A DNA stretch of 63,317 nucleotides. It comes from Shinella fusca. Lineage in GTDB: Bacteria > Pseudomonadota > Alphaproteobacteria > Rhizobiales > Rhizobiaceae. Numbering within the stretch: position 1 is the stretch's first letter; each line of letters starts with the position of its first letter. Of the stretch, positions 23,717-48,913 are shown in pieces. The DNA lies in NCBI RefSeq assembly GCF_014203155.1, contig NZ_JACHIK010000023.1:1-63317 (forward strand), read 5' to 3'. A model generated the notes under the pieces. The model saw only the letters and a list, made by a program, of their open reading frames with translations. It was not told where the DNA came from and did no database searches. The translations under genes and the position numbers were made by a program.

Positions 23717-24769
23717 CTATTTTGCCAGCAACGGTATGTTTTCGCGGAAGATGATCTCCATGCTCAACGGAGGGCATGCAAGTCCCGCCGCGTTCATCGG
23801 CGCGGACGTCGAGAACTGCTCGAGCGCCCGGGCGATCACCTGATCCGGATCGGAATTGATGACGGCGTCCATCGTGCCCTCGATCAGGAAGCGGCGCGTG
23901 TCGGCGGTCAGTCCGTGTCCGATGAAGACCACGCTGTCGCCCTTGCCGCGTTCGCGCAGAGCCCGCGCGATCCCATCCGACGAACCGCCGACATTGTAGA
24001 TGCCGACAAGATCTGGGTTCTGGTCGATCAGCGACAATGTGTGCCGATAGTTCTCGTTGCGGTCGTCGTGGCCCTCGCGCATTCCTACCACGCGCAAGCG
24101 GGGATAGGTCTCTTCGAGAAGACCGAGGAAGCCGAGTTCGCGTTCCGAATGGGTGCGATATGTGCGGCTGCCGGCGACGAGCGCCACGCTGCCCTCGCGC
24201 GAGCCGCAGAACCGGCCGAGCAGATAGGCCGCCGTGCGGCCGGCCGCGTGATTGTCCAGGCCGACATAGGCCTCGCGGGCCGGATGGATCATGTCGGAGA
24301 CAATGGTGACCAGACGGGTTCCCGCTGCGCTGACCTCTTCGGCCGCCTCGCGCACCAGCGGATGATCGATCGCCATGAAGGCGATGCCATCGGCCCATTT
24401 GGAATGGAGCCGTAGCGCCGCCGCTATGGCCGCGGCGTTGAAGCTCTCGATGAAGAAGCATCGTACGGGGCTTGCATCGCGGCGGCCGGTCTCCGCCACG
24501 TCCCGGACCTTTTCGCCCAGCAGCTTGAGGTAGGGATTGCCGCCCATCGGCAGCAGGAACGCGATATGGGCGGGGCGCGGGGCGGACAAGAGGTCACGCT
24601 CCTCCTCGCTGAGATAGCCAAGATCCACCGCAGCAGCCAGAACCCGCTCCACCGTGCGCGCCTTCACCCCCTTGCGGCGGTTCATCACGCGGTCGACCGT
24701 TGCCAGCGAAACGCGCGCGGCGGCGGCGACATCGTTCAGGGATGGATTTCCCGACCTGACCACATTCAC
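23717..24769 (-). CDS. LacI-family regulator of the TRAP/RuBisCO-like operon
   Basis: A 350-residue regulator: N-terminal helix-turn-helix SLNDVAAAARVSLATVDRVMNRRKG, then a periplasmic-binding-like ligand domain (HIAFLLPMGGNPYLKLLG, VSDMIHPAREAYVGLDNHAAGRTAAY, VGIYNVGGSSDGIARAL). It is divergent from the DctPQM operon, 136 bases away, so it is probably its repressor, with a sugar acid as ligand. The start is a GTG with tandem GAGGTGA sequences upstream, one of which must act as ribosome binding site. Confidence 0.87.
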   Translation of the reverse strand: MNVVRSGNPSLNDVAAAARVSLATVDRVMNRRKGVKARTVERVLAAAVDLGYLSEEERDLLSAPRPAHIAFLLPMGGNPYLKLLGEKVRDVAETGRRDASPVRCFFIESFNAAAIAAALRLHSKWADGIAFMAIDHPLVREAAEEVSAAGTRLVTIVSDMIHPAREAYVGLDNHAAGRTAAYLLGRFCGSREGSVALVAGSRTYRTHSERELGFLGLLEETYPRLRVVGMREGHDDRNENYRHTLSLIDQNPDLVGIYNVGGSSDGIARALRERGKGDSVVFIGHGLTADTRRFLIEGTMDAVINSDPDQVIARALEQFSTSAPMNAAGLACPPLSMEIIFRENIPLLAK

Positions 24770-36515: not shown

Positions 36516-38579
36516 TCAGAACTGCACGCCCAGCCGCAGCGCATCCAGCATGGCGGCGTGGACGGAGCGGCTGCTGACCGCATCGCCGATCCGGTGCAAC
36601 TCGAAACCGGCCGCCGGCCGCGCGCGCAGGGGCGCGGGATCGACAAGCGTCACGATGTCCGTGACCCCGTCGTTCGACGAGAGAGGCCGCAGGCCATCGA
36701 AGAGCTCGTTCATCGGGATCGTCCCGTGCTCGACGATGACCTGCGCGTGGATCGAGCGCCGTTCCCGCCCGGTCAGCAGGTGGCGCAGCACCGCTTCGCG
36801 CCGCCCGTTGCGCATGGCGACCGAAACCAGCTCGTATTCCAGCAGAACCTTTACATCGTGTTCCGCGAACGCCTTGCGATAGGTGATGCCGGAGTGATGC
36901 TCCATTTCCGGCGCGACGGAGGGATCGCGGGCGACGAAGGTCACGGCCTTGCCGGCCGCGGCGATCTCGGCAGCTACGGAGGGCGCAGGATGACGGCCGG
37001 TCGCGTCGTAGACCAACACGTCGCCGTTGACCTGCACCGGGTTGGCGAGCGCGTCAAAGACGCTGAGACACAGCTCGCTTCCCGCGACGGGGCCGAAATC
37101 CGGAATGCCGCCAGTGGCGAGGAGGACGAGATCGGGCACCTCGGCCAGAACGTCCGCCGCCTCGGCAAAGGTGTTGAGCCGGACGTCCACGCCGAGCCGC
37201 TCCAGTTCGGCGATACGCCAGTCGACAATCCCGGCGAGATCGCGCCTGAGACGGGCCTTGGCGGCAAGGACGAGTTGGCCGCCCAGCCGGTCGGCTGCTT
37301 CCAGCAGCACGACACGATGCCCCCGTTCGGCCAGCACCCGCGCAGCCTCCAGCCCTGCCGGCCCGCCGCCCACGACGACCGCCCTGCGTTCCGCGTGCGC
37401 CGAGCGCTCGATCACCTGCGGCAGCCAGGTCTCGCGTCCCGTCGCCGGATTGTGGATACAGTGCACCGGGCGGTAGAGACAGTGCGAGGCGCCGACGCAG
37501 GGGCGGATCTCCGCTTCGCGGCCCGCGCGCAGCTTGTTGACGATCTGCGGATCGGCCATGTGCGCCCGCGTCATGCCGACCATGTCGACGATCCCCGCGC
37601 CAACGGCATAGCGCGCCGTGGCGACATCCGCGATCTTGGCCGCGTGGAACACCGGCAGGCCCGTTTCCGCCTTGAACGCGCCGACCCTGCGCAGCCAGGG
37701 TGCGGAGGCGGCCGTCATGTCGGGGATGTTGTAAACGAGGAGGTTGAGGCGGGTATCGAAGCGGCCGAAGATGCAGTTGAAGAAATCGACGAGGCCCTCA
37801 CGCTCCAGCACGTTGGCAATCGCGACTGCCTCGGCGAAACCCAGGCCGTCCGCGTGGTCCTCGTCGATCGTGTAGCGGATGCCGAGCGGGTATTCCGTCC
37901 CGACGGCCGTGCGGATCTCCTCGTAGACCATGCGCAGGAACCGCATCCGGTTTTCCAGCGAGCCGCCGAAGGCGTCGGTGCGCCGGTTGACGAGCGGCGA
38001 CAGGAACTGCCCGATCAGATGACCGCCCGTCATGGTCTCGATGCCGTCGAGCCCACCCTCCTTCGCCCTCCGGGCCGCCGCACCGAATTCACGCACGATG
38101 CGCGCGATGTCATGGCGATCCATCTCATGGGCGAAGGCGCGGTTGTAGTCCTCGCGGGAATGGGAGGGGCCGAGCGCCGGCAACCAGGCGCCGACCGTGG
38201 CATTCGCCCGGCGGCCGACATGGGATATCTGGCACATCACCGCCGCACCATGGCGGTGGATGCGATCGGAGAAGGCCCGGAACGCCGGAACAACCGCATC
38301 GCTCGATACGTCGAGCTGCGTGCCGCCCCAACTCGTATCGGCGGAGATGCGGGCCGAGCCGCCGAACATCGTCAGCGCGAGGCCGCCCTTCGCCTTCTCC
38401 TCGTGATAGCGCTGATAGGCCTCGAGCGGATGGCCGCCCTCGTCGAGGGCGGTCTCGTGGCTGGTGCTCATGATCCGGTTGCGGAGCGTAAGCCGGCCAA
38501 CCTGCAGCGGCCGCAATAGCGGGTCACCCTTTTCCCGCACGGGCGGCACCTGTTTCCCGGATGGCGTCCTGTCGTCCAT
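36516..38579 (-). CDS. FMN/FAD/4Fe-4S oxidoreductase of the dienoyl-CoA reductase / N-methylproline demethylase type
   Basis: A 687-residue two-part flavoprotein. The N-terminal old-yellow-enzyme barrel runs to about residue 370 (LRNRIMSTSHETALDEGG, GGLDGIETMTGGHLIGQFLS, NRRTDAFGGSLENRMRF). Then come cysteines of an iron-sulfur cluster (CVGASHCLYRPVHC near residue 375) and an FAD/NAD(P) domain (AVVVGGGPAGLEAARVLAERGHRV). The family includes trimethylamine dehydrogenase and demethylases of methylated amino acids. Last of a minus-strand operon, 10 bases after the epimerase gene. The substrate is likely an N-alkyl compound. Confidence 0.83.
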   Translation of the reverse strand: MDDRTPSGKQVPPVREKGDPLLRPLQVGRLTLRNRIMSTSHETALDEGGHPLEAYQRYHEEKAKGGLALTMFGGSARISADTSWGGTQLDVSSDAVVPAFRAFSDRIHRHGAAVMCQISHVGRRANATVGAWLPALGPSHSREDYNRAFAHEMDRHDIARIVREFGAAARRAKEGGLDGIETMTGGHLIGQFLSPLVNRRTDAFGGSLENRMRFLRMVYEEIRTAVGTEYPLGIRYTIDEDHADGLGFAEAVAIANVLEREGLVDFFNCIFGRFDTRLNLLVYNIPDMTAASAPWLRRVGAFKAETGLPVFHAAKIADVATARYAVGAGIVDMVGMTRAHMADPQIVNKLRAGREAEIRPCVGASHCLYRPVHCIHNPATGRETWLPQVIERSAHAERRAVVVGGGPAGLEAARVLAERGHRVVLLEAADRLGGQLVLAAKARLRRDLAGIVDWRIAELERLGVDVRLNTFAEAADVLAEVPDLVLLATGGIPDFGPVAGSELCLSVFDALANPVQVNGDVLVYDATGRHPAPSVAAEIAAAGKAVTFVARDPSVAPEMEHHSGITYRKAFAEHDVKVLLEYELVSVAMRNGRREAVLRHLLTGRERRSIHAQVIVEHGTIPMNELFDGLRPLSSNDGVTDIVTLVDPAPLRARPAAGFELHRIGDAVSSRSVHAAMLDALRLGVQF

Positions 38580-38588
38580 CTTCCCCTC

Positions 38589-39428
38589 CTATGCCGGCCC
38601 GAGGGCCTTGCGCATCGCCTCGACGCATCGCTTCAAGGGCGGGGTGGGATCGACATTGTATTTCCAGTTGGTCAGCTCGATCGTCAGCGCCCCCTCGTAG
38701 TTCTGGCTCCGCAGATAGGCGACCAGCCCGTCGAGATCGATGATGCCCTCGCCCCAGGCAAGATGGCTACCGTCGGCATCCGAGTCAGTGAAATGCACAT
38801 GGGCGATGCGGCCGGCGAGATGGGTAAAATAGTCTTCCGGCTGTTCTTTCGTCATTACGGCGCCCGCTACGTCATAGACGGCGTGGAGCGCCGGGCTTGC
38901 GAGCGTGTCCATGAGGGCGCGGATCTCCTTGGCCGAGCGGACGATGTTGGCGAAGGAATCGGGCAGCGACTCCATCCAGAGATCGACGCCGAGCCTTGCC
39001 GCGCGGTCGCACAGGATGCCCATGGAATCGACGCAACGCTCCAGCGCTTCGGCGGCCGGCTCGTCGCGGTAGCCGCCGCCGGCCGTCACCAGCAGGGCCG
39101 GCGCGCCGCATTCGACGGCGAATTCCATCGATTCCAGGAAATAGCGCACCGATCGATCGCGCAATTCCCGCTCCTTCGCCGAGATGTTGACGGGGTAGAT
39201 GCACTGTTCCGGCGTGAAGGCGACGATGTCGAGGCCCATGCCGCGCACCTTCCGTCCGAGCGCCCGCGCCTCGGCCAGCGTCTTGTCACCGATATAGAAA
39301 TGCGGAGCGGCGGCCCAGAGCTCGATGCGGGAGACGCCGGCATCGCACACATCGGCCAGAAAGCGGTCCATCGTGTGCCGGACATAGTGGAAGTTCATCA
39401 CGCTGATATTGCGCTCGTCGAGTGCCAT
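38589..39428 (-). CDS. Sugar isomerase/epimerase TIM-barrel protein, FrlC-like
   Basis: A 279-residue AP-endonuclease-2-type barrel. Metal ligands are visible as E in WMESLPDSF, D in VYDVAGAV, H in HVHFTDSDADGSH and E in LTIELTNWK. The segment DIVAFTPEQCIYPVNISAKERELRDRS, in two stretches, parallels FrlC (fructoselysine 3-epimerase), which has GYTPETNGYPYN at the same place. It presumably epimerises a fructosyl-amine or keto-sugar acid. A LacI-type palindrome lies 60 bases upstream of the start. Confidence 0.75.
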   Translation of the reverse strand: MALDERNISVMNFHYVRHTMDRFLADVCDAGVSRIELWAAAPHFYIGDKTLAEARALGRKVRGMGLDIVAFTPEQCIYPVNISAKERELRDRSVRYFLESMEFAVECGAPALLVTAGGGYRDEPAAEALERCVDSMGILCDRAARLGVDLWMESLPDSFANIVRSAKEIRALMDTLASPALHAVYDVAGAVMTKEQPEDYFTHLAGRIAHVHFTDSDADGSHLAWGEGIIDLDGLVAYLRSQNYEGALTIELTNWKYNVDPTPPLKRCVEAMRKALGPA

Positions 39429-39488: not shown

Positions 39489-39502
39489 TGATAACGTTCT
39501 CA
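39489..39502. promoter_or_regulatory. LacI-type operator upstream of the epimerase gene
   Basis: TGATAACGTTCTCA matches the palindrome TGAGAACGTTCTCA found three more times in this cluster (one mismatch). It is 60 bases before the start at 39428, where a repressor could block transcription. Confidence 0.7.
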
Positions 39503-39545
39503 CTTCGCATTGCACGTTGATATCCCCCTCGCCGTCCTATTCCGC

Positions 39546-41027
39546 TTATGAGCGAAGACCGAATTCGCGGGCGGTTTCGGCGACGAAGGCTGCGACCTCG
39601 GCCGCCCTCTCCTCCTCCGTCCAGCCGAGGTGCCGGGCGGCCAGGCGCGCGGCGGTTTCCGCGTGAGGAAGACCGAGATCCGGCTCCCATCCGACGGACA
39701 GGCGGCGGCGCAGGATGTCCGAGAGCGTACGGGCCTGCTCGTGCAGCACCGCATGGTTGACGGAGGCTTCCGTGACGCCGTCGAGACCATCGAGAGATGG
39801 CGCGGCGGGATCGAGCGGGCGCGGCGGCCCGGAGGGCTTCAGCCGGCGGGAGACCGCCCGCGTGAGCCGCCGCCCGGCGTCGCGGTGAGTCATCAGCAGG
39901 CCACCCGTAAAGGTGAAGACGTTCGGCAGTCCCTCGTCGGTGAGGTCGTGCTCCCGCACCGCCGGCGCCGAGCCCTCGCCGTCGCCTGCAAGGCTGCGCG
40001 GCCGCACGCCGGCCCAGGAATAGAGCACGTCCTCGCGACGTGGAGAGAGACCGGGAAACAGCCGTCCGAGCTGGTCGAGGATCGCGGCGATCTCCGCCTC
40101 GCTGGCCCGAAAACCTTCGGGCCTCCCGTCCGAGGCGGAATCCCACGGGCCGACATAGTGCAGTTCGCCCCAGGGGATCAGGTAGAAGGGCGCGCCCGCG
40201 GCGGTGACGGTCTCGAAGCCGATGCCGCGCAGGCTCTCCGGCAGACGCAGGACGATGTTCGTGCCCTTCTCGCCGGTGTTCTTGCGAATATGCGGCGCGC
40301 CCGCGAGCGCGGTGATCTCATCGACCCAGACGCCCGCGCAATTGACCACCGCGCGCGCCAGCACGTCGCGCGATCCCTCGGCCGCCGTCAGCGTCACGCG
40401 CCACAGGTCGCCCTCGCGCGCGAGCGCCGTCACCGCCGTGTGGTTCAGCGCCTCCATGCCGATCGCGCGCGCCTTCATCACGGTATCGACGACGATGCGC
40501 TCGGGCCAATGATACTGGTATTCCGTGAAGGTCATCGCGCCGCGGATGCCTTCGAGCCCCGCCATGCCTTTCAACGCCTGATGCGTCCGTGCCTCCGACG
40601 CGGACAGGATGCGCAGGTCGAGCGGCACGCGGCCGCCGTCGCTCGCCGCCATTAGCCAAAAGGCCAGCCGCGCCTTCCAGCGAGGAACACCGTTCGCCTG
40701 CGTCAGGGGGATGATGAACGTGACGGGCCTCACCCGCTCGGGCGCGGTGCGGACGAACTCCGCCCGGCCCTGCATGGCGCGGCGCATGAGGCTGAAGCAT
40801 TCGATCGCGCTTCTCGGCCGGGCGAGAAAGGCGGCGATTGATCCGCTGGCGGCCGAAAGATAGCCGAGCCCGCAATGCTGCAGCCGCGATGTCTTGCTGG
40901 TCGTGCCCGCACCGTAATCGTCGCGTTCGACGAGCAGCGTGCGATAGCCCGCCGCCGCCAGATGCTGCCCGGCCGCCGCGGCGATGATGCCGCCGCCGAC
41001 GACCACGGTGTCGTAAGTCTGGGTCAC
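39546..41027 (-). CDS. FAD-dependent oxidoreductase, glycerol-3-phosphate dehydrogenase-like
   Basis: About 493 residues. The N-terminus carries the dinucleotide motif TVVVGGGIIAAAAGQHLAAAG and ends the first strand with LVERDDYGAGTTSKTSRLQH, as in GlpD. The C-terminal DAO_C part has SVNHAVLHEQARTLSDILRR. It oxidises an unknown alcohol or amine with FAD and may pass electrons to quinone. The start chosen is a GTG at 41027 with GAAGG upstream; a longer frame up to 41108 would run over the LacI-type operator and is unlikely. Confidence 0.78.
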   Translation of the reverse strand: MTQTYDTVVVGGGIIAAAAGQHLAAAGYRTLLVERDDYGAGTTSKTSRLQHCGLGYLSAASGSIAAFLARPRSAIECFSLMRRAMQGRAEFVRTAPERVRPVTFIIPLTQANGVPRWKARLAFWLMAASDGGRVPLDLRILSASEARTHQALKGMAGLEGIRGAMTFTEYQYHWPERIVVDTVMKARAIGMEALNHTAVTALAREGDLWRVTLTAAEGSRDVLARAVVNCAGVWVDEITALAGAPHIRKNTGEKGTNIVLRLPESLRGIGFETVTAAGAPFYLIPWGELHYVGPWDSASDGRPEGFRASEAEIAAILDQLGRLFPGLSPRREDVLYSWAGVRPRSLAGDGEGSAPAVREHDLTDEGLPNVFTFTGGLLMTHRDAGRRLTRAVSRRLKPSGPPRPLDPAAPSLDGLDGVTEASVNHAVLHEQARTLSDILRRRLSVGWEPDLGLPHAETAARLAARHLGWTEEERAAEVAAFVAETAREFGLRS

Positions 41028-41067
41028 GTTCAGATCCGCCTTCGGCAGTAGATTTCGATGCCTGATG

Positions 41068-41081
41068 TGAGAACGTTCGCA
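41068..41081. promoter_or_regulatory. LacI-type operator in the divergent FAD-oxidoreductase/SIS promoter region
   Basis: TGAGAACGTTCGCA, one mismatch from the 14-base palindrome. It lies 41 bases upstream of the oxidoreductase start on the minus strand and 86 bases upstream of the SIS gene on the plus strand, so it may act on both. Confidence 0.7.
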
Positions 41082-41128
41082 AAATTTCGTCGCCGGTGTC
41101 AACCCCACTTGACGCGACGACCGGGATT

Positions 41129-41152
41129 ATAATACGTATTATGACGTCATAT
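41129..41152 (+). promoter_or_regulatory. Promoter-overlapping palindromes before the SIS-gntR operon
   Basis: ATAATACGTATTAT at 41130-41143 is a perfect palindrome overlapping a perfect -10-like TATAAT (41129-41134). It is followed directly by TATGACGTCATA at 41141-41152, also a perfect palindrome. These are good candidates for the operator of the GntR/HutC regulator encoded two genes on. No well-spaced -35 is seen. Confidence 0.55.
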
Positions 41153-41166
41153 AGAAAGGTACGACC

Positions 41167-42168
41167 ATGCCCCTGCCCTCCGCCTTCGACGCCGGCGTCG
41201 CCGCGGCGCTCTCCGCTCTCGACGCGAAATCGGTGAAGCACGTCTTCTTCGTCGCCTGCGGCGGCTCGCTGTCGATCATGCATCCGGCCAAGTTCCTGCT
41301 CGACCAGCATTCTGCGCTGCCGTCGGACGTCTACAACGCCGCCGAGTTCGTGGCGCGCGCCCCGCGCGCGCTCGACGGCAACTCGCTGGTCATCCTCTGC
41401 TCCATGACGGGCACCACAAGGGAAACCACCGCCGCCGCCGAATTCGCCCGCGCGAAGGGCGCGGCGACCATCGGCCTCACGGTCGAGCCCGCCTCCCCGC
41501 TCGCCAAGGCGGTCGACCATGTCGTCGGCTTCGAGGCGCCCTATACGACCGGCGTGCCGATCGACGCCAAGGACAGCAACTATTCGCGGATCTACCAGAT
41601 CGTCATGGGCCTCGTTGCGCTCACCGGCGGCGAGGACCTGACGGAAACGCTGATCGAAAGCCTCCAAGCACTCCAGCCGGCCATCGACCGCGCCCAGGCG
41701 GCCTTCGCGCCGATGTTCGAGGACTACGCCCCGCGCTTCGCCGGGGAAGACGTGATCTACACGGTCGCCAGCGGCGCGAGCTACGGCGCGGCCTATTCCT
41801 TCGCCATCTGCGTGCTCATGGAGATGCAGTGGATCAATAGCCAGGCGATCCACGCGAACGAGTTCTTCCACGGCCCCTTCGAGGTGTTGGACAAGGATCG
41901 CGCCTTCATCCTCATGAAGGGCCTCGACAGCACGCGGCCGCTGGAAGAGCGCGCCGACGAATTCCTCCACCGCTTCGGCTCGGCGGAGAACATCCTGGTC
42001 CTCGACGCCAAGAAGCTCGACCTCACCGGCATCGATCCGCGCTTGCGGGGCAATGTCGTGCCGCTGATCTTCTTCGACACGCTCTGGCGTTTCGCCTATA
42101 AGATCGCCGACCTGCGCAAGCACGAGATGCTTCAGGCGCGGCGCTACATGAAGAAGATCGCCTACTGA
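41167..42168 (+). CDS. SIS-domain sugar isomerase, FrlB-like deglycase
   Basis: A 333-residue protein of two SIS domains: HVFFVACGGSLSIMHPAKFLLDQH (residues 20-43), LVILCSMTGTTRETTAAAEFA, and in the second half YTVASGASYGAAYSFAICVLMEMQWINSQAIHANEFFHGPFEV in several motifs. ANEFFHGPFEV is the loop that bears the catalytic Glu and His in FrlB and GlmS-type isomerases. FrlB cleaves fructosamine-6-phosphates to glucose 6-phosphate and an amine. With the FrlC-like and PfkB genes in this locus it supports Amadori catabolism. AAAGG precedes the ATG. Confidence 0.82.
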   Translation: MPLPSAFDAGVAAALSALDAKSVKHVFFVACGGSLSIMHPAKFLLDQHSALPSDVYNAAEFVARAPRALDGNSLVILCSMTGTTRETTAAAEFARAKGAATIGLTVEPASPLAKAVDHVVGFEAPYTTGVPIDAKDSNYSRIYQIVMGLVALTGGEDLTETLIESLQALQPAIDRAQAAFAPMFEDYAPRFAGEDVIYTVASGASYGAAYSFAICVLMEMQWINSQAIHANEFFHGPFEVLDKDRAFILMKGLDSTRPLEERADEFLHRFGSAENILVLDAKKLDLTGIDPRLRGNVVPLIFFDTLWRFAYKIADLRKHEMLQARRYMKKIAY

Positions 42169-42186
42169 CCGGGCCTGGAAGGGCGG

Positions 42187-42897
42187 ATGGACGACCAAGC
42201 ACAGCTTTTACCGCTCTATGAACAGGTCCGGCGTTCGATCCTGGCGGGCATCGAGGCCGGCCAGTTCGCCGAAGGCAGCTTCCTGCCGGCCGAACCCGAA
42301 CTGATGGCGTTCTACGGCGTCAGCCGGATCACGCTGCGGCGCGCCATCGGCGATCTTTGCGCCGACGGCCGCCTGCAGCGCCAGCAGGGCCGCGGCACCG
42401 TGGTGATGCCCGACAAGGTGCGGCAGACGCTCGTTTCGCTCTCCGGCTTTTCGGAGACCATGGACGGTCTCGGGCGAAAGGCCGGCCACCGCATCCTTGC
42501 CCGAGACGACAATCCCGACGCGCCGGCCATCCGCGAGCGCCTGCGCGCCGCAGCCCTGATCCGTTTCGACCGTCTGCTGGAGGACGGCGGCAGGCCGATG
42601 ACGCTGGAGACGCTCTGGTTCGACGCGGCGCGTTTCCCCGAAATCGTCGAGCCGGTTGCGGCGGGCGGTTCCTTCTTCACGGCGCTCCGCGACAAGGCCG
42701 GCATCGTACCGGCGCATGCGGAGCGGCAGATCGATGTCGGTCTCGCCTCCGCCGGCGAGCGCGGCATTCTCGCGGTGACGGCCGCTCAGCCGGTCTACCG
42801 GATAGAGAAGATCGTCACCGACCGCGAGGGGCGCCCGCTCGCCCTGTCGCAACTCGTCACCCCAAGCCATCTGGTCACGTACACGATCAAGACCTGA
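42187..42897 (+). CDS. GntR-family regulator, HutC/UTRA type
   Basis: A 236-residue regulator. The winged helix is LLPLYEQVRRSILAGIEAGQF with SFLPAEPELMAFYGVSRITLRRAIGDL in the recognition part; a UTRA ligand domain follows (RFDRLLEDGGRPMTLETLW, RIEKIVTDREGRPLALSQLV). It lies 18 bases after the SIS gene and probably senses a phosphosugar or amino sugar and controls its own operon through the palindromes at 41.13 kb. Confidence 0.87.
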   Translation: MDDQAQLLPLYEQVRRSILAGIEAGQFAEGSFLPAEPELMAFYGVSRITLRRAIGDLCADGRLQRQQGRGTVVMPDKVRQTLVSLSGFSETMDGLGRKAGHRILARDDNPDAPAIRERLRAAALIRFDRLLEDGGRPMTLETLWFDAARFPEIVEPVAAGGSFFTALRDKAGIVPAHAERQIDVGLASAGERGILAVTAAQPVYRIEKIVTDREGRPLALSQLVTPSHLVTYTIKT

Positions 42898-42907
42898 AAG
42901 GTTCGAC

Positions 42908-43846
42908 ATGCACGTTTTCGACGCCGCCGCCGTCCACGCGGCGCTTGACTGGCCCTTCCTCATCGAGGCGTTGCGCAAAGCCCATCTCGGGCCCATGCCG
43001 GCTTCGGACGTCCTCGTGCAATCCGATCCGGCAGGCGGCAAGGCCCAGTTCGTCACCCTGCCCGGCTGGGCGCCTGGCGGGCCGGTCGTCGTGAAGATGG
43101 TGGGCGTCTTTCCGCAGAACGCATCCCTCGAGCCGCCGCAACCCGCCGTCCAGGGACTGGTGGCGCTCTTCGACGGGGCGACCGGCGCACCGCTGCTTGC
43201 CGCGGACGGCGCGGCCATGACCGCGCGCAAGACCGCCGCCGATTCAGCGCTCGGCGCATCAATCCTGGCCAGGGAGGATGTCGAGGATTTGCTGATCGTC
43301 GGAGCCGGTGCGCTCGCGCCGCATTTCGCCGAGGCGCATCTTGCGGCCAGGCCCTCGCTCCGTCGGGTTACGATCTGGAACCGCACTGCGGCCCGGGCGG
43401 AGGCGGTCGCGGCGCAGTTGCGCGAGAAGGGCATCGACGCCTCGGCCGGCACAGATCTCGACGGCGCGGTCGCGCGCGCCGACATCGTGTCCTGCGTGAC
43501 CATGTCGGACACGGCGCTGGTCAAGGGCGCGCTCCTGCGGCCGGCCACGCATCTCGACCTCGTCGGCGCCTATCTGCCGACGCTGCGGGAAGCGGACGAC
43601 GCGGCGCTTTCGCGCGGCACGATCTTCGTCGACAGCCGCAACAACATGGAAGGCGGCGGCGACCTCTCGCAGGCCGTCGCATCGGGCGCGATCACCTGGG
43701 AGGCCGTGAAGGCCGATCTCTTCGAGCTTGTCCAGGGCCGGAGCGAAGGCCGCACCGGCGCCGATCAGATCACCGTGTTCAAGAACAACGGCGGCGCGCA
43801 TCTCGACCTCTTCACCGCCGCTGCGCTTTCGCAGACGCTCGGCTGA
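42908..43846 (+). CDS. Ornithine cyclodeaminase / mu-crystallin family protein
   Basis: A 312-residue NAD(P)-binding protein: the Rossmann segment LLIVGAGALAPHFAEAHLAARPSL near residue 123, VTIWNRTAARAEAVA, ADIVSCVTMSD, and HLDLVGAYLPTLREAD. The family includes ornithine cyclodeaminase, alanine dehydrogenase and ketimine reductases. It ends the SIS-gntR operon. It may process the amino acid or imine released from a glycated substrate. Confidence 0.83.
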   Translation: MHVFDAAAVHAALDWPFLIEALRKAHLGPMPASDVLVQSDPAGGKAQFVTLPGWAPGGPVVVKMVGVFPQNASLEPPQPAVQGLVALFDGATGAPLLAADGAAMTARKTAADSALGASILAREDVEDLLIVGAGALAPHFAEAHLAARPSLRRVTIWNRTAARAEAVAAQLREKGIDASAGTDLDGAVARADIVSCVTMSDTALVKGALLRPATHLDLVGAYLPTLREADDAALSRGTIFVDSRNNMEGGGDLSQAVASGAITWEAVKADLFELVQGRSEGRTGADQITVFKNNGGAHLDLFTAAALSQTLG

Positions 43847-43850
43847 CGCC

Positions 43851-44639
43851 TCACGCGTCGGCGAGCACCCGCGCCAGGAAGGCCCGTGTGCGATCTTGCT
43901 GCGGACGCGTCAGCACATCGACCGGCCGGCCCTCTTCGACGATCACACCACCATCCATGAAGATCAGGTGGTCGGCGACGTCGCGTGCAAAGCCCATTTC
44001 ATGCGTGACGACGACCATGGTCATGCCGTCGTCGGCAAGCTGGCGCATCACGGCCAGCACTTCGCCGACGAGTTCCGGATCAAGCGCCGAGGTCGGCTCG
44101 TCGAACAGCATGACATCCGGCTTCATCGCCAGCGAACGGGCGATGGCCGCCCGCTGCTGCTGGCCGCCGGAAAGCTGCGCCGGATAGTAGCCCGCGCGCT
44201 CCTCCATGCCGACGCGTTCCAGAAGCACCATCGCCTCCTCGATCGCCGTGCCGCGCGGCACGCGCTTGACCTGCACCGGCGCCTCGATGACGTTCTCAAG
44301 CACGGTCTTGTGCGGGAAGAGGTGGAAACCTTGGAAAACCATGCCCATGCGCTGGCGCTGCCGGGCAAGCTCATTGAAGCTCATCTCGTAGAGCTTGTCG
44401 CCCTTCCAGCGCACGCCGACAGGCTCGCCGCGCAGGAAGATCGCACCGCCGGTCGGCTTTTCGAGATAGTTGAGGCAGCGCAGGAGCGTACTCTTGCCCG
44501 AGCCGGAGGGTCCCACAATGCAGGTCACGTCGCCGCGCATCACCGCGACATCGATACCGCTCAGCACCTCATGCGCGCCGAAACTCTTGCGTAGGCGCTC
44601 CACCTTCAGCAGCGGCTCGGCAGTCGTCTGGTCGTTCAT
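43851..44639 (-). CDS. Polar amino acid ABC transporter ATP-binding protein
   Basis: A 262-residue ATPase: Walker [11 protein letters not shown]-loop [11 protein letters not shown], signature LSGGQQQR, Walker [14 protein letters not shown], switch [10 protein letters not shown]. It belongs to the GlnQ/HisP class. The start overlaps the permease stop as TGATG. Confidence 0.93.
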
Positions 44640-45562
44640 CAAAGGGCCTCCTGCTGGCGCGCGAAGAGCCGGAAGGAGAAGAGCCCGCCCGCCTTCTTCG
44701 CGCCGGTGCGATGTTCGGATTTCAGTCGGTGCTCGACGGCGTGCTCGCTCACCGTCAGGACCGTGGTGAGCACGAGATACCAGATGGTCGCGACGATCAG
44801 CAGCGGCACGGTCTGGTAGGTGCGGGCATAGACCATCTGGGCGGAATAGAGCAGATCGGGCAGCGCCAGCACGGAAACGAGCGAGGTGAACTTCAGCATC
44901 GAGATCGTGTCGTTGCCGATGGGCGGGATGACGATGCGCAGCGCCTGCGGCAGAACGATGCGGCGCAGCGTCTGGCCGCGCGTCATGCCGAGCGTCGCGG
45001 CCGCTTCCGTCTGGCCGGCACTGACGGCCTGGATGCCGGCGCGGATCATCTCGGCGGCATAGGCGCTCTCGGTGAAGGCGAGCCCCATGATGGCGGCGCT
45101 GAACGGGGTGATGAGCTGGTTGGTGTTCCAGGAAATGAGCTTCGGCCCACCGAACGGAATGCCGATCGATATCTCGGGCAGAAGGAGCGCCAGGTTGTAC
45201 CAGAAGATCATCTGGACAAGCGGCGGCACGCCGCGGAAGAACCAAATCCAGCCCCAGCTTACGGCCTGGAAGACGCGGCTCGCCGACAGGCGCATGATGG
45301 CGAGCAGGACGCCGATCGCAAGGCCGAGCACCATGGCGAGGAACGTCAGGAGCAACGTCATGCCGAGGCCCGACAGGATGGCGGGGCTCAGCATGTATTC
45401 GGCAACCACGCCCCACTGCATGTTTTTGTTGGTGACGAGCACCTGCACAAAGACGACCGCCAGGACGGTGATAACCGCTCCGCCCACCCAGTGGCCGATC
45501 TTTGGCACCGCGATGGGCTTGACGTCGTGGATCGAGGGGCGGTGGGGCGGTTCTTCAGACAT
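44639..45562 (-). CDS. Polar amino acid ABC transporter permease
   Basis: A 307-residue permease of the HisM/GlnP class with about five helices and the coupling motif [23 protein letters not shown] (EAA-loop). AGGAAA lies before two adjacent ATG codons (45565 and 45562); the second has better spacing. It appears to be the only permease of the system, so a homodimer is expected. A strong hairpin separates it from the binding-protein gene. Confidence 0.92.
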
Positions 45563-45593
45563 CATCGTTTCCTGTGCCGGTCGCAAGCCTCCG

Positions 45594-45621
45594 CCCCGGC
45601 CCGGGTCATCCCGGGCCGGGG
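45594..45621 (-). other. Perfect 12-bp GC hairpin between binding-protein and permease genes
   Basis: CCCCGGCCCGGG, a 4-base loop, then the exact complement CCCGGGCCGGGG. There is no T-run, so it is unlikely to be a simple terminator. It is placed to protect the binding-protein mRNA and reduce expression of the downstream permease. Confidence 0.72.
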
Positions 45622-45628
45622 AACGGTT

Positions 45629-46474
45629 CTAGAGGTCCGCCGGATTTTCTTCCGTGATCAGGAGCGCCTTGCTCAGCATCCCGGAATCGTCCAGACCCCA
45701 CTTGGCCATGATCTTCTCATAGGTGCCGTCGTCGATCATCGACTGAATCGCATCCGTCATGACCTTACCGAGCGGATCGCCCTTGCGCACGCCAATGCAG
45801 CTATTCACCGGCGAGAGGACCAGTTCGGACACCTTCAGGTCTCCGGTCTGCTTAGCCATGTAGGCGAGCTTGACGGAGCCGGCGACGGTCGCCTCGGCGC
45901 GCTTCGAGCGGACGGCGAGTTCGGCCTGGGCCTGCGTGCCGTGCGTCTGCACGGTCAACGGGTGGTCCTTGCATTCGTTGGCATTCAGCCTTTCGACGAG
46001 CCCGAGATCCCACGAGCCGTTCAAGACCGCGACCGTCAGGCCGCAGGTGTCCGTCGCGGCCTTGATGTCGAGCTTGCTGTCCGCGGGGTAGGCAAACGAG
46101 GTCCCGATCTTGCGCTGGGAGACGAAATCGAGCGTCTTCAGGCGCTCCGCGGTCGTGCCGAAGGACGAGAAGCCCGCGTCGAAGCGCTTGGACTGAAGAC
46201 CCGGAATGATGGCGTCGAAGCTCGTCCCCTCGAAGGTGAAGGGCACGCCCAGGCGATCCTCCATCTCTTTCGCGATATCCACGCTCCAGCCCTTGAGCTG
46301 ACCGTCGGAATCAAGGAATTCGTCGGGCGCCCAGTCGTTGAAGACCGCGGCCTTGATGCCGTTGTCCTTGTATTCCTGCGGCAAGGCATCGTGCAGGGCC
46401 GGGATGACATCGGCAAGCGCCGGCATCGCCAGCACCGCGCTTAGAACACAACCGGCCAGAATAGACTTGAACAT
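45629..46474 (-). CDS. Polar amino acid ABC transporter substrate-binding protein
   Basis: A 281-residue periplasmic protein with signal peptide FKSILAGCVLSAVLAMPALA and family-3 features: APDEFLDSDGQLKGWSVDIAKEMEDRLG, FDAIIPGLQSKRFDAGFSSFG, and DFVSQRKIGTSFAYP. The ligand is probably an amino acid or its glycated derivative, given the neighbours. Preceded by a LacI-type palindrome 69 bases upstream. Confidence 0.9.
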   Translation of the reverse strand: MFKSILAGCVLSAVLAMPALADVIPALHDALPQEYKDNGIKAAVFNDWAPDEFLDSDGQLKGWSVDIAKEMEDRLGVPFTFEGTSFDAIIPGLQSKRFDAGFSSFGTTAERLKTLDFVSQRKIGTSFAYPADSKLDIKAATDTCGLTVAVLNGSWDLGLVERLNANECKDHPLTVQTHGTQAQAELAVRSKRAEATVAGSVKLAYMAKQTGDLKVSELVLSPVNSCIGVRKGDPLGKVMTDAIQSMIDDGTYEKIMAKWGLDDSGMLSKALLITEENPADL

Positions 46475-46542
46475 GACATCCTCCTTGTCGTGCGGACCCG
46501 GCGGGACCGCGATTCGTTCTCTGGTTCCCTTGCTAATGATGG

Positions 46543-46556
46543 CGAGAACGTTCTCA
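46543..46556. promoter_or_regulatory. LacI-type operator upstream of the ABC transporter operon
   Basis: CGAGAACGTTCTCA, 13 of 14 bases of the cluster palindrome. It lies between the binding-protein start (46474, minus) and the lacI gene (46735, plus), so autoregulation is also possible. Confidence 0.75.
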
Positions 46557-46734
46557 CATATGAGACACAGTCATCGCCCGCTCGTCAAGCGCCGTTTTGC
46601 GCGGAATGATTCGGAAAGGGCGTTGAAAACGGCCATCGATCTGGTAATGCCTGTAAAAAGACTGTCGATTTTTTGCGAGATCCGCATGATGAAATTCTCA
46701 TTCGGCAGGCCCGGAATGTGAGAGGGAAATGCTG

Positions 46735-47823
46735 ATGGCTCCAAAAAGCAAGGCGACGATCGCAGATGTTGCACGCGCAGCAGGCGTTTCCACGGCGACG
46801 GCGGGGCGCGTGCTCGGCGGCTACGGCTATACCAGTGAGGAGAAGAAGGAGCAGGTCCTCAAGGCCGCCCAGAATCTCGGCTATCGGCCTAACGCGCTTG
46901 CCCGCAGTCTCATCACCGGCAAAACGCGCACGCTCGGCGTCGTGGCCGGCGATATCCAGAATCCCTTCTATGCCTCGGTCCTGCGCGGCGTTTCCAATGT
47001 CGCCGAGGCCAACGGCTTCGGCCTTCTGATCACCAATAGCGACGAAGCGCAGCCGAAGGAGGTCCATTCGGTCGAGCTTCTGGCGCAAAAGCAGGTGGAC
47101 GGACTGATCGTCACGCCCAGCGACACGCGCAGGGCGCGGCACTTGCACAGCCTCAGGGCGATGGGCGTGCCGCTCGTGCTGATCGACCGCGCGGTCGCCG
47201 GCCTGATGGTGGACCGTGTGGCGACCGACAACATCGCCGCCGCCGAACAGGCCGTGCGCCATCTTATCGCGGCAGGGCACCGCCGGATCGGCATCGTGGC
47301 GGAACTCGTCGACGAGGAGCGCGGCGGGTTGGATGCGTTCCTGGCGCGCGCCGTTGCCGGCGATCCGATCGAAAGCGAAACACTCTATCCGAGCTGGCAG
47401 CGCCTTCTTGGCTATATCCGGGCGCACAGGATCGAGGGCCTGCCCGTCGATCCGCGGCTCACGCTCAGGGCCGGCAGCTATTCGGCCCTCGCCGCGCAGG
47501 CGGTCGTCCCGCAGCTGATAACGGCGCCCGATGCGCCGACGGCACTCTTCACCACCGACGGCACCATGTCCGAAGGCACCATGCGGGCGCTTGTGGAACT
47601 GAAGCGTTCCATTCCGCAGGATCTCTCGATCATCTGCTTCGACGACCTCGACTGGATGAGCTTCCACCGGCCCGGCATCACCACCGTCGCCCAGCCGCGC
47701 CTTGCTATGGGCGAGGCCGCCGCGCGGATGCTGCTGGAGCGCATTCGCGGCGAAGACTATCCGCCGCGCACCGTGCTGATGCCTGCAGAACTCATCGAAC
47801 GGGGTTCCGTCGCACGGCTCTGA
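46735..47823 (+). CDS. LacI-family regulator of the fructosyl-amine locus
   Basis: A 362-residue LacI regulator: helix-turn-helix ATIADVARAAGVSTATAGRVLGG, hinge helix PNALARSLITGKTRTLGVV, ligand domain with DRVATDNIAAAEQAVRHLI and DLSIICFDDLDWMSF. The ATG at 46735 has GAGAGGGAA at good spacing; another ATG at 46729 is too close. Divergent from the ABC operon and just upstream of the PfkB kinase gene. Four copies of one palindrome nearby are the likely binding sites. Confidence 0.9.
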   Translation: MAPKSKATIADVARAAGVSTATAGRVLGGYGYTSEEKKEQVLKAAQNLGYRPNALARSLITGKTRTLGVVAGDIQNPFYASVLRGVSNVAEANGFGLLITNSDEAQPKEVHSVELLAQKQVDGLIVTPSDTRRARHLHSLRAMGVPLVLIDRAVAGLMVDRVATDNIAAAEQAVRHLIAAGHRRIGIVAELVDEERGGLDAFLARAVAGDPIESETLYPSWQRLLGYIRAHRIEGLPVDPRLTLRAGSYSALAAQAVVPQLITAPDAPTALFTTDGTMSEGTMRALVELKRSIPQDLSIICFDDLDWMSFHRPGITTVAQPRLAMGEAAARMLLERIRGEDYPPRTVLMPAELIERGSVARL

Positions 47824-47986
47824 CTACTCGAAGCCGCGGCCCATTCTTTTCCGCTTTTCCCGCGCATATTCATGCGCGAACGATCACCTGCGGCACCGGA
47901 ACCGCCCCTTCGATTGGCCCCGCGAGCAAATCGAATGCCCTTTTCCGCCGAAATCATTTGCCTTTCGCGACGCGGCCTTGTAGGTG
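47824..47986. other. Intergenic region between lacI and pfkB
   Basis: Contains no gene. It should hold the promoter of the kinase gene, just left of the operator at 47987. Confidence 0.4.
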
Positions 47987-48000
47987 AGAGAACGTTCTCA
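47987..48000. promoter_or_regulatory. LacI-type operator upstream of the PfkB kinase gene
   Basis: AGAGAACGTTCTCA, 13 of 14 bases of the cluster palindrome, 25 bases before the kinase start and thus placed to block transcription or promoter escape. Confidence 0.75.
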
Positions 48001-48025: not shown

Positions 48026-48913
48026 ATGCCCCGCCCCGTCAGAATCCTCGCCTTCGGTGACAACGTGGTCGATTGCTACCGCGACCAGAACCTGATGTTT
48101 CCTGGTGGGAACTGCGTGAATCATGCGGTCTTCGCCCGCCGGGCGGGCGCCGAGGCGGCCTATGCCGGCGCAGTCTGCGAAGACGAGGCGGGCCGCCTTA
48201 TCCGCCGGGCGCTGATCAAGGAAGGCGTCGACGTCTCGCTATTGCGGATGGAACCGGGACAGACCGCCTATTGCGTGATCGAGACGCAGGGCGGTGATCG
48301 GGTGTTCGTCGGGGCCAATCTCGGCGTGTCAATCATCGCGCCCACAAACAAGGATTTGGCGCGGCTTCAGGAAGTCGATGCGGTCCACACTGGCAGATCG
48401 AGCCATGTCGATGCATGGCTGCCGCGCTTTGCTGAGGTGACGAAAGTCTCCTACGATCTCGCGACTGTGCACGATCCCCGACGCATCGCCCTTGTGGCGC
48501 CGCACTGTTTCCTTCTTGCCTTCTCCGCGGGCGGCGTCTCGCGCGCGGAAGCGCTCTCGCTCGCCCAGCTTGCCCGGTCGGCCGGCGCCCGTTGGAGCCT
48601 CGTCACCCGCGGCATCGAAGGCGCTCTTCTGGTCGGCGAAACCGGCGTCTTTGAAATGCCGGCCCGACCGGTCGACGCCGTCGACACGTTGGGCGCCGGT
48701 GATACCTACATCGCCAACGTCCTCGTCGGCCTGCTGAACGATCTGCAGCCCGAGACCGTCTTGAAGAGGGCCACGGAAGCTGCCGCGCAAACCTGTCTGA
48801 TGCGTGGCGCCTTTGGGCATCAGGCAACCATGACCATCGATCTGTCGAACATGATGAGCCTGGAGGAGGTCTACCGCTTTACCCGCCCTGCGGAAGCGCC
48901 CGAGGCGGTTTGA
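48026..48913 (+). CDS. PfkB-family sugar kinase, FrlD-like
   Basis: A 295-residue kinase. The N-terminus ILAFGDNVVDCYRDQNLMFPGGNCVNHAVFARRAG, with GGN, parallels FrlD (fructosamine 6-kinase: [22 protein letters not shown]). The C-terminal motif VDAVDTLGAGDTYIANVL carries the catalytic Asp. It would phosphorylate a fructosyl-amine at C6 for the SIS deglycase. CAGGAG precedes the ATG at 48026. Confidence 0.85.
   Translation: MPRPVRILAFGDNVVDCYRDQNLMFPGGNCVNHAVFARRAGAEAAYAGAVCEDEAGRLIRRALIKEGVDVSLLRMEPGQTAYCVIETQGGDRVFVGANLGVSIIAPTNKDLARLQEVDAVHTGRSSHVDAWLPRFAEVTKVSYDLATVHDPRRIALVAPHCFLLAFSAGGVSRAEALSLAQLARSAGARWSLVTRGIEGALLVGETGVFEMPARPVDAVDTLGAGDTYIANVLVGLLNDLQPETVLKRATEAAAQTCLMRGAFGHQATMTIDLSNMMSLEEVYRFTRPAEAPEAV

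Follow-up and report, generated by a model that had tools for sequence, protein, structure and literature searches.

Four near-identical 14-base palindromes stand in front of genes on both strands of one catabolic locus in Shinella fusca; which regulator reads them, and what does it govern? The locus lies in a 63,317-nucleotide stretch of DNA (contig NZ_JACHIK010000023.1 of assembly GCF_014203155.1; hereafter the window), and a sequence-only reading had joined its epimerase, flavin oxidase, ATP-binding cassette (ABC) transporter and PfkB genes into one LacI regulon. We consider it very probable that the LacI-family protein encoded at 46729-47823 uses the four palindromes as its operators. Through them it would control the import, phosphorylation and cleavage of Amadori compounds together with accessory genes, most likely by repression, and a GntR regulator may act as a second lock at one promoter. 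This LacI regulon has apparently not been named so far; it is related to that of SocR and of a well-known kind.

Palindromes of the locus and its relatives

Searches used the 14-base reference palindrome TGAGAACGTTCTCA and covered the whole genome (4.85 Mb, 39 contigs). Four sites were found in the window, each exactly one mismatch from the reference:

39489-39502, - strand: predicted LacI operator 1, TGATAACGTTCTCA, upstream of the FrlC-like epimerase operon
41068-41081, no strand assigned: predicted LacI operator 2, TGAGAACGTTCGCA, in the divergent region between the flavin adenine dinucleotide (FAD) oxidase gene (-) and the FrlB-like deglycase operon (+)
46543-46556, no strand assigned: predicted LacI operator 3, CGAGAACGTTCTCA, upstream of the ABC importer (-)
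47987-48000, + strand: predicted LacI operator 4, AGAGAACGTTCTCA, upstream of the PfkB (FrlD-like) kinase

All four were located where the sequence-only reading had placed them (39489, 41068, 46543 and 47987), and its range of 25-69 bases to a gene start agreed with the measured gaps of 60 (epimerase), 40 (FAD oxidase), 68 (substrate-binding protein, SBP) and 25 bases (PfkB), with the GTG at 41027 and the ATG at 48026 taken as the starts of the FAD oxidase and PfkB genes. Operator 2 was 85 bases from the SIS gene, and operator 3 was 172 bases from the LacI gene (+). At up to two mismatches the window held 4 sites, compared with a mean of 0.12 and a maximum of 1 in 100 shuffles. Genome-wide, at up to one mismatch, only these four sites were found, all intergenic and within 8.5 kb; the palindrome was therefore confined to the LacI-encoding locus, as had been claimed, rather than common at random positions elsewhere. 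Exactly two mismatches added two sites (C1:43263 and C6:7374), within mechanical open reading frames of 271 and 417 amino acids. A genome-wide search for more regulon members with the relaxed pattern TGHGAACGTTCDCA and one mismatch added only C15:84245. The shorter 12-mer GAGAACGTTCTC showed little excess in the window at up to three mismatches (35 matches, with 26.0 expected by chance and 34 in the largest shuffle), and its two extra two-mismatch matches, at 40023 and 44286, were both intragenic.

The sites were conserved next to orthologs of the regulator. The LacI protein was used to scan 84,980 species genomes, and the best 80 of the 89 relatives found gave 78 loci (48-94% identity), including loci of Paraburkholderia and of Actinobacteria such as Pseudarthrobacter. 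At up to one mismatch the palindrome was present in 72 of the 78 loci. Most of the 153 sites (139) lay at most 400 bases upstream of a locus gene, 14 lay elsewhere and none fell within these genes. The upstream sites preceded SBP/LacI (41), FrlB/FrlD (36), FrlD (25), DAO/FrlB (18), FrlC (14), FrlB (3), DAO (1) and LacI (1). By comparison, 419 control palindromes obtained by half-site permutation occurred in a mean of 0.21 loci, with a maximum of 12.

Regulator, deglycase and site also occurred together in a survey of 199 genomes of the family, our own included, with thresholds chosen by us (E <= 1e-90 for LacI, E <= 1e-70 for FrlB). LacI orthologs were present in 15 genomes and FrlB orthologs in the identical 15. 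The site was found in all 15 LacI-positive genomes (33 sites) and in 53 of the 184 LacI-negative genomes (69 sites; Fisher 3e-8, with relatedness ignored). The reversed pattern, used as a control, gave 25 matches across 23 of the 199 genomes, none of them among the 15. The proposal of one LacI regulon was strengthened by the uniqueness of the sites in the genome, by their conservation at ortholog loci, by this co-occurrence and by the contrast between recognition helices and operators described below, although it proved incomplete.

Two observations concern the distribution of the cluster. In Ensifer and Mesorhizobium (loci L072, L076 and L078-L088) the palindrome was found about 1.1 kb ahead of ABC permease and ATPase genes whose products shared only about 32% and 50% identity with those of the window, as though a different transporter had come in behind an unchanged operator. 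An IncF plasmid of Klebsiella quasipneumoniae (L095) carried a LacI-SIS-PfkB-amino-acid ABC cluster, its LacI protein 45% identical with the helix STAAAGR, and the intergenic region of this cluster held the AACGTT-core palindromes TGATAACGTTATCA and AGAGAACGTTATCA; a second cluster (GntR-SBP-SIS-PfkB) was located nearby.

Recognition helices and operator cores

The window protein matched both the helix-turn-helix model (PF00356) and the periplasmic-binding-protein-like sensor model (PF13377) above cut-off. Its ATAGR recognition helix was shared by 76 of the 78 orthologs, while the other two (L073 and L075) had ATASR, with the sites TGAGAACGTTCACA and TGAGAAGGTTCACA. The genome encoded 17 further LacI-family genes over the Pfam cut-off, which qualifies the tie of the sites to one LacI protein; none of the 17 carried ATAGR. 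One of them lay in the window itself (24611-24739) and had a different recognition helix, LATVDRV.

Operator cores were compared across 13 LacI paralogs (33-45% identity) from 12 of the 78 loci, with weaker ones of 25-28% identity (L030, L039) excluded. Eleven carried a K-A-[TQ]-A-A-R helix, and nine of these had TGAG[AT]CCGG[TAG]CTCA upstream. The remaining two (L021 and L091) had an R-A-T-A-A-R helix, with TGAGATCGATCTCA near the gene (L021:544 and L091:18780). The same palindrome was observed on a Shinella plasmid (L135:1294-1307), about 80 bases ahead of a SIS gene, with the third paralog type (RATAAR) and SIS and FAD-oxidoreductase genes adjacent.

The soc genes of Agrobacterium have been placed beside repABC of pAtC58 (PMC4231840). 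Because of this position we took the genes beside repABC in the pAtC58 record, which leaves them unnamed, for soc and SocR. The LacI protein encoded there was 38% identical to that of the window and 60% identical to the L024 paralog, and had the helix KATAAR. Between its gene and a binding-protein gene lay TGAGACCGGTCTCA; the intergenic region (L136:8755-8979) also held a second copy with one change, and the two are likely the SocR operator pair. The core was ACCGGT at pAtC58 and AACGTT in the window. The window protein and its sites were not of the SocR clade (TATAGR helix and AACGTT core versus KATAAR and a CCGG core), and the SocR-type pattern TGAGAYCGRTCTCA occurred in the window at chance level (2 matches at two mismatches, 1.0 expected). 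Since helix and operator core change together, we assign the AACGTT palindrome to the window's LacI protein. In a quick tree SocR grouped with two paralogs (L024, L070; support 0.99), but deeper nodes were partly weak, and we therefore base the relationship to SocR on identity rather than on the tree.

Predicted pathway and control of its promoters

The genes of the locus were as follows:

36516-38579, - strand: OYE/FadH-family flavin oxidoreductase, 9 bases downstream of the epimerase gene
38589-39428, - strand: FrlC-like sugar epimerase/isomerase, TIM barrel
39546-41027, - strand: FAD-dependent oxidoreductase of the glycerol-3-phosphate dehydrogenase type (DAO and DAO_C)
41167-42168, + strand: FrlB-like SIS-domain protein, likely a fructosamine-6-phosphate deglycase
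42187-42897, + strand: GntR regulator of the HutC/UTRA type, 30% identical to E. coli FrlR
42908-43846, + strand: ornithine cyclodeaminase/mu-crystallin family enzyme (OCD)
43851-44639, - strand: ATPase of an amino-acid-type ABC importer
44639-45586, - strand: ABC importer permease, annotated as an amino acid ABC permease in relatives
45629-46474, - strand: ABC importer SBP, family 3
46729-47823, + strand: LacI-family regulator, recognition helix STATAGRVL
48026-48913, + strand: PfkB kinase, fructoselysine 6-kinase-like (FrlD)

The cluster resembles an FrlD/FrlB-type route, with kinase and deglycase, for breaking down Amadori compounds, and it contains extra redox genes besides. The top NCBIfam models for the SIS protein, the kinase and the epimerase were the fructoselysine ones. 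In the Protein Data Bank (PDB) the deglycase matched 3eua best (E 9.6e-84), an entry described as a putative fructose-amino-acid-6-phosphate deglycase; aligned to 3eua and 3fkj, it retains a Glu/His pair, E219/H235, 16 residues apart, whose role we presume to be that of the pair in GlmS and FraB. Cleavage by FrlB-like enzymes yields glucose 6-phosphate and an amino acid. The SBP had general matches only, one being the deoxyfructosyl-amino-acid binding protein 5l9o (E 3.8e-9). From the 9-base gap, the OYE and epimerase genes probably form one operon; the OYE/FadH-type gene was not seen in the sequence compared around many related loci. The FAD enzyme was also considered as an amadoriase (fructosyl-amino-acid oxidase), the enzyme expected in an oxidative santhopine (soc) locus, but this identity was not supported, its best matches being glycerol-3-phosphate dehydrogenases or oxidases, with no amadoriase among 11 PDB matches.

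On the - strand, TTGACA began 21 nucleotides (nt) upstream of operator 2 and TTGACG 32 nt upstream of operator 3. In 278 oriented segments of related sequences, TTGAC preceded the palindrome by 32 nt 42 times, by 20-21 nt 56 times and by 11 nt 21 times (raw counts, without shuffle comparison). These offsets fit a repressor sitting at or just after the promoter. A LacI dimer would lie over or just after the promoters, most likely repressing them, until released by an Amadori compound or its phosphate, a likely inducer class by analogy with the frl systems (PMC12632257). Its targets would comprise fructosamine import, FrlD-like phosphorylation and FrlB-like cleavage, and the accessory FrlC-like, FAD-oxidoreductase, OYE and OCD enzymes would belong to the same set. 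The epimerase, flavin oxidase, ABC transporter and PfkB genes thereby keep their proposed membership; the sequence-only reading had left out the SIS deglycase-GntR-OCD operon, which shares operator 2, had missed a further element in that promoter and had not named the likely catabolism of Amadori compounds.

The further element was noticed on comparing the regions upstream of frlB:

41130-41151, + strand: putative GntR operator, TAATACGTATTATGACGTCATA, AT-rich

It was unique in the genome at up to three mismatches. Of the 78 loci, 67 encoded an FrlB ortholog with 50% identity or more; in these the element was scored against a 24-base consensus drawn from the GntR-positive loci, a GntR gene being counted at >40% identity. 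Every one of the 30 loci with a GntR gene scored at least 15, the cut, and no locus among the 37 lacking the gene did so, although L061 (score 15) was not distinguishable by its score because shuffles reached 15 once in 67. The idealised palindrome ACGTCATATGACGT matched the window at 12 of 14 positions, GntR loci at 10-13 and other loci at 7-9. Before E. coli frlA it matched at 11 of 14, equalled by 5 of 500 mononucleotide shuffles; since the sequences were already known when both element patterns were designed, we treat this match as a lead only. In HutC-type sites GT and AC are mostly four bases apart (PMC4494728); in the window element the spacing would be six.

The GntR protein may bind this ACGT-rich element, which is nearer the start of the FrlB-GntR-OCD operon and would form a second lock at its promoter. 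This suggests that the key enzyme, the deglycase, is under two switches, and nothing else in the regulon is, in our view, as unusual as this additional GntR-linked control, which concerns a single promoter. The balance is even for a broader proposal: at least three regulators would have arisen from one Amadori-sensing LacI subfamily, with operators that are alike except for the core (AACGTT, ACCGGT or ATCGAT), and this core would vary together with two residues of the recognition helix. The window type, which occurs in Actinobacteria as well as in alpha- and beta-proteobacteria and in a more diverged form on plasmids of gamma-proteobacteria, would run the whole pathway, while in part of the lineages a separate FrlR-like GntR would guard the deglycase promoter and give the deglycase step its own control.

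Alternatives and known systems

Several observations weigh against repression of an Amadori pathway by this LacI protein. Binding to the four promoters and their repression are predicted from sequence, as are the operon extents and the substrate, whose assignment rests on homology. The fructoselysine models scored below their curated cut-offs (SIS 102 against 430 bits, PfkB 142 against 247, epimerase 123 against 305), and for this reason we call the cluster frl-like rather than frl. A sigma-70 scan of the region gave no promoter at its threshold. Six of the 78 ortholog loci were without a site at up to one mismatch: L049, L068 and L075 had two-mismatch sites, L074 had just a SocR-type site beside its paralog, and L046 and L092 had no palindrome in the locus DNA examined. 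The loci are related, so that their counts are not independent. Two of the 11 K-type paralogs (L019 and L077) were without a palindrome upstream, and the ATCGAT palindromes lay near, yet not upstream of, the genes of the RATAAR regulators. Finally, the motif exceeded its reversed control even without a LacI ortholog (69 sites in 184 genomes versus 25 in all 199), and other regulators may therefore use similar sites.

The alternative that survives best, though unlikely, is that the LacI protein controls these genes as an activator, or that the cluster degrades another amino-sugar conjugate; it overlaps with the preferred explanation, and the two probabilities do not sum to one. The sign of control is not readable from sequence, and reports on B. 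subtilis FrlR conflict, describing a repressor (PMC12632257) or an activator (PMC7475707) in the parts consulted. The sub-threshold fructoselysine matches and the extra redox and OCD genes, which have no annotated counterpart in E. coli frl, also favour this alternative. Against it stand the best PDB match of the deglycase, the matches of kinase, deglycase, epimerase and GntR protein to E. coli frl proteins, and the positions of the sites relative to TTGAC, which fit blocking.

It is very improbable that the palindromes are operators of another regulator, either the GntR protein of the same operon or one of the 17 other LacI proteins. The GntR gene is in the locus, and operator 2 falls within the promoter region of its operon. 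However, loci lacking a GntR gene still had the palindrome within 200 bases upstream of frlB (28 of 37 at 13 or more of 14 positions, the other 9 at 12), much as loci with the gene did (28 of 30 at 13 or more; L026 at 12 and L032 at 9), presence of GntR tracked the element at 41130-41151 instead, and the ATAGR helix was absent from the other LacI proteins. That the repeats arose by chance or are another inverted repeat, such as a terminator or mobile element end, is scarcely credible: similar palindromes do occur in LacI-negative genomes, but here four sites fell within 8.5 kb while the rest of the genome had none at the same threshold, the sites were kept upstream of orthologous genes, and none of four terminator-like sites overlapped a palindrome.

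Control by the window's LacI protein would assign to such a regulator a function, a set of targets and a candidate class of inducers, and makes the operator code testable alongside the known soc system. Among the literature matches listed, no title or beginning of an abstract described a LacI regulator paired with a kinase/deglycase fructosamine cluster. In the plasmid records (30 of 349 listed) the LacI protein was mostly labelled by family only, with one labelled kdgR/alanine racemase, one DegA and some unannotated.

Local LacI regulons typically have CG-centred palindromic operators, and the palindrome shared by the promoters of the window locus is likewise centred on CG. The regulators described by Ravcheev et al. 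(2014) belong to the LacI family and control sugar genes; 72% are autoregulated, and the main text (PMC4052901) contains none of the words fructosamine, fructoselys-, Amadori or glycated. Like the window, the frlBONMD-frlP system of B. subtilis has a deglycase, a kinase and an ABC importer, with FrlR as the repressor; unlike the window, CodY also controls the operon, and the part of PMC12632257 consulted gives no LacI regulator for it. With E. coli frl (frlABCD, frlR) the window shares homologs of FrlB (25% identity), FrlC (26%), FrlD (32%) and FrlR (over 228 aligned positions), and the stretch ACATCATATGTTGT before frlA resembles the GntR-linked element. In contrast, E. coli frl has no LacI gene, uses the permease FrlA instead of an ABC importer and has no annotated FAD oxidoreductase, OYE or OCD. 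The soc system of pAtC58, for santhopine and deoxyfructosyl-glutamine use, has an FAD-binding oxidoreductase and a Gfo/Idh protein and no annotated kinase or SIS gene, and differs in operator core and recognition helix. It nevertheless resembles the window in placing a LacI-family regulator beside an ABC importer, and its operator-like TGAGACCGGTCTCA departs from the window's operators in the core only.

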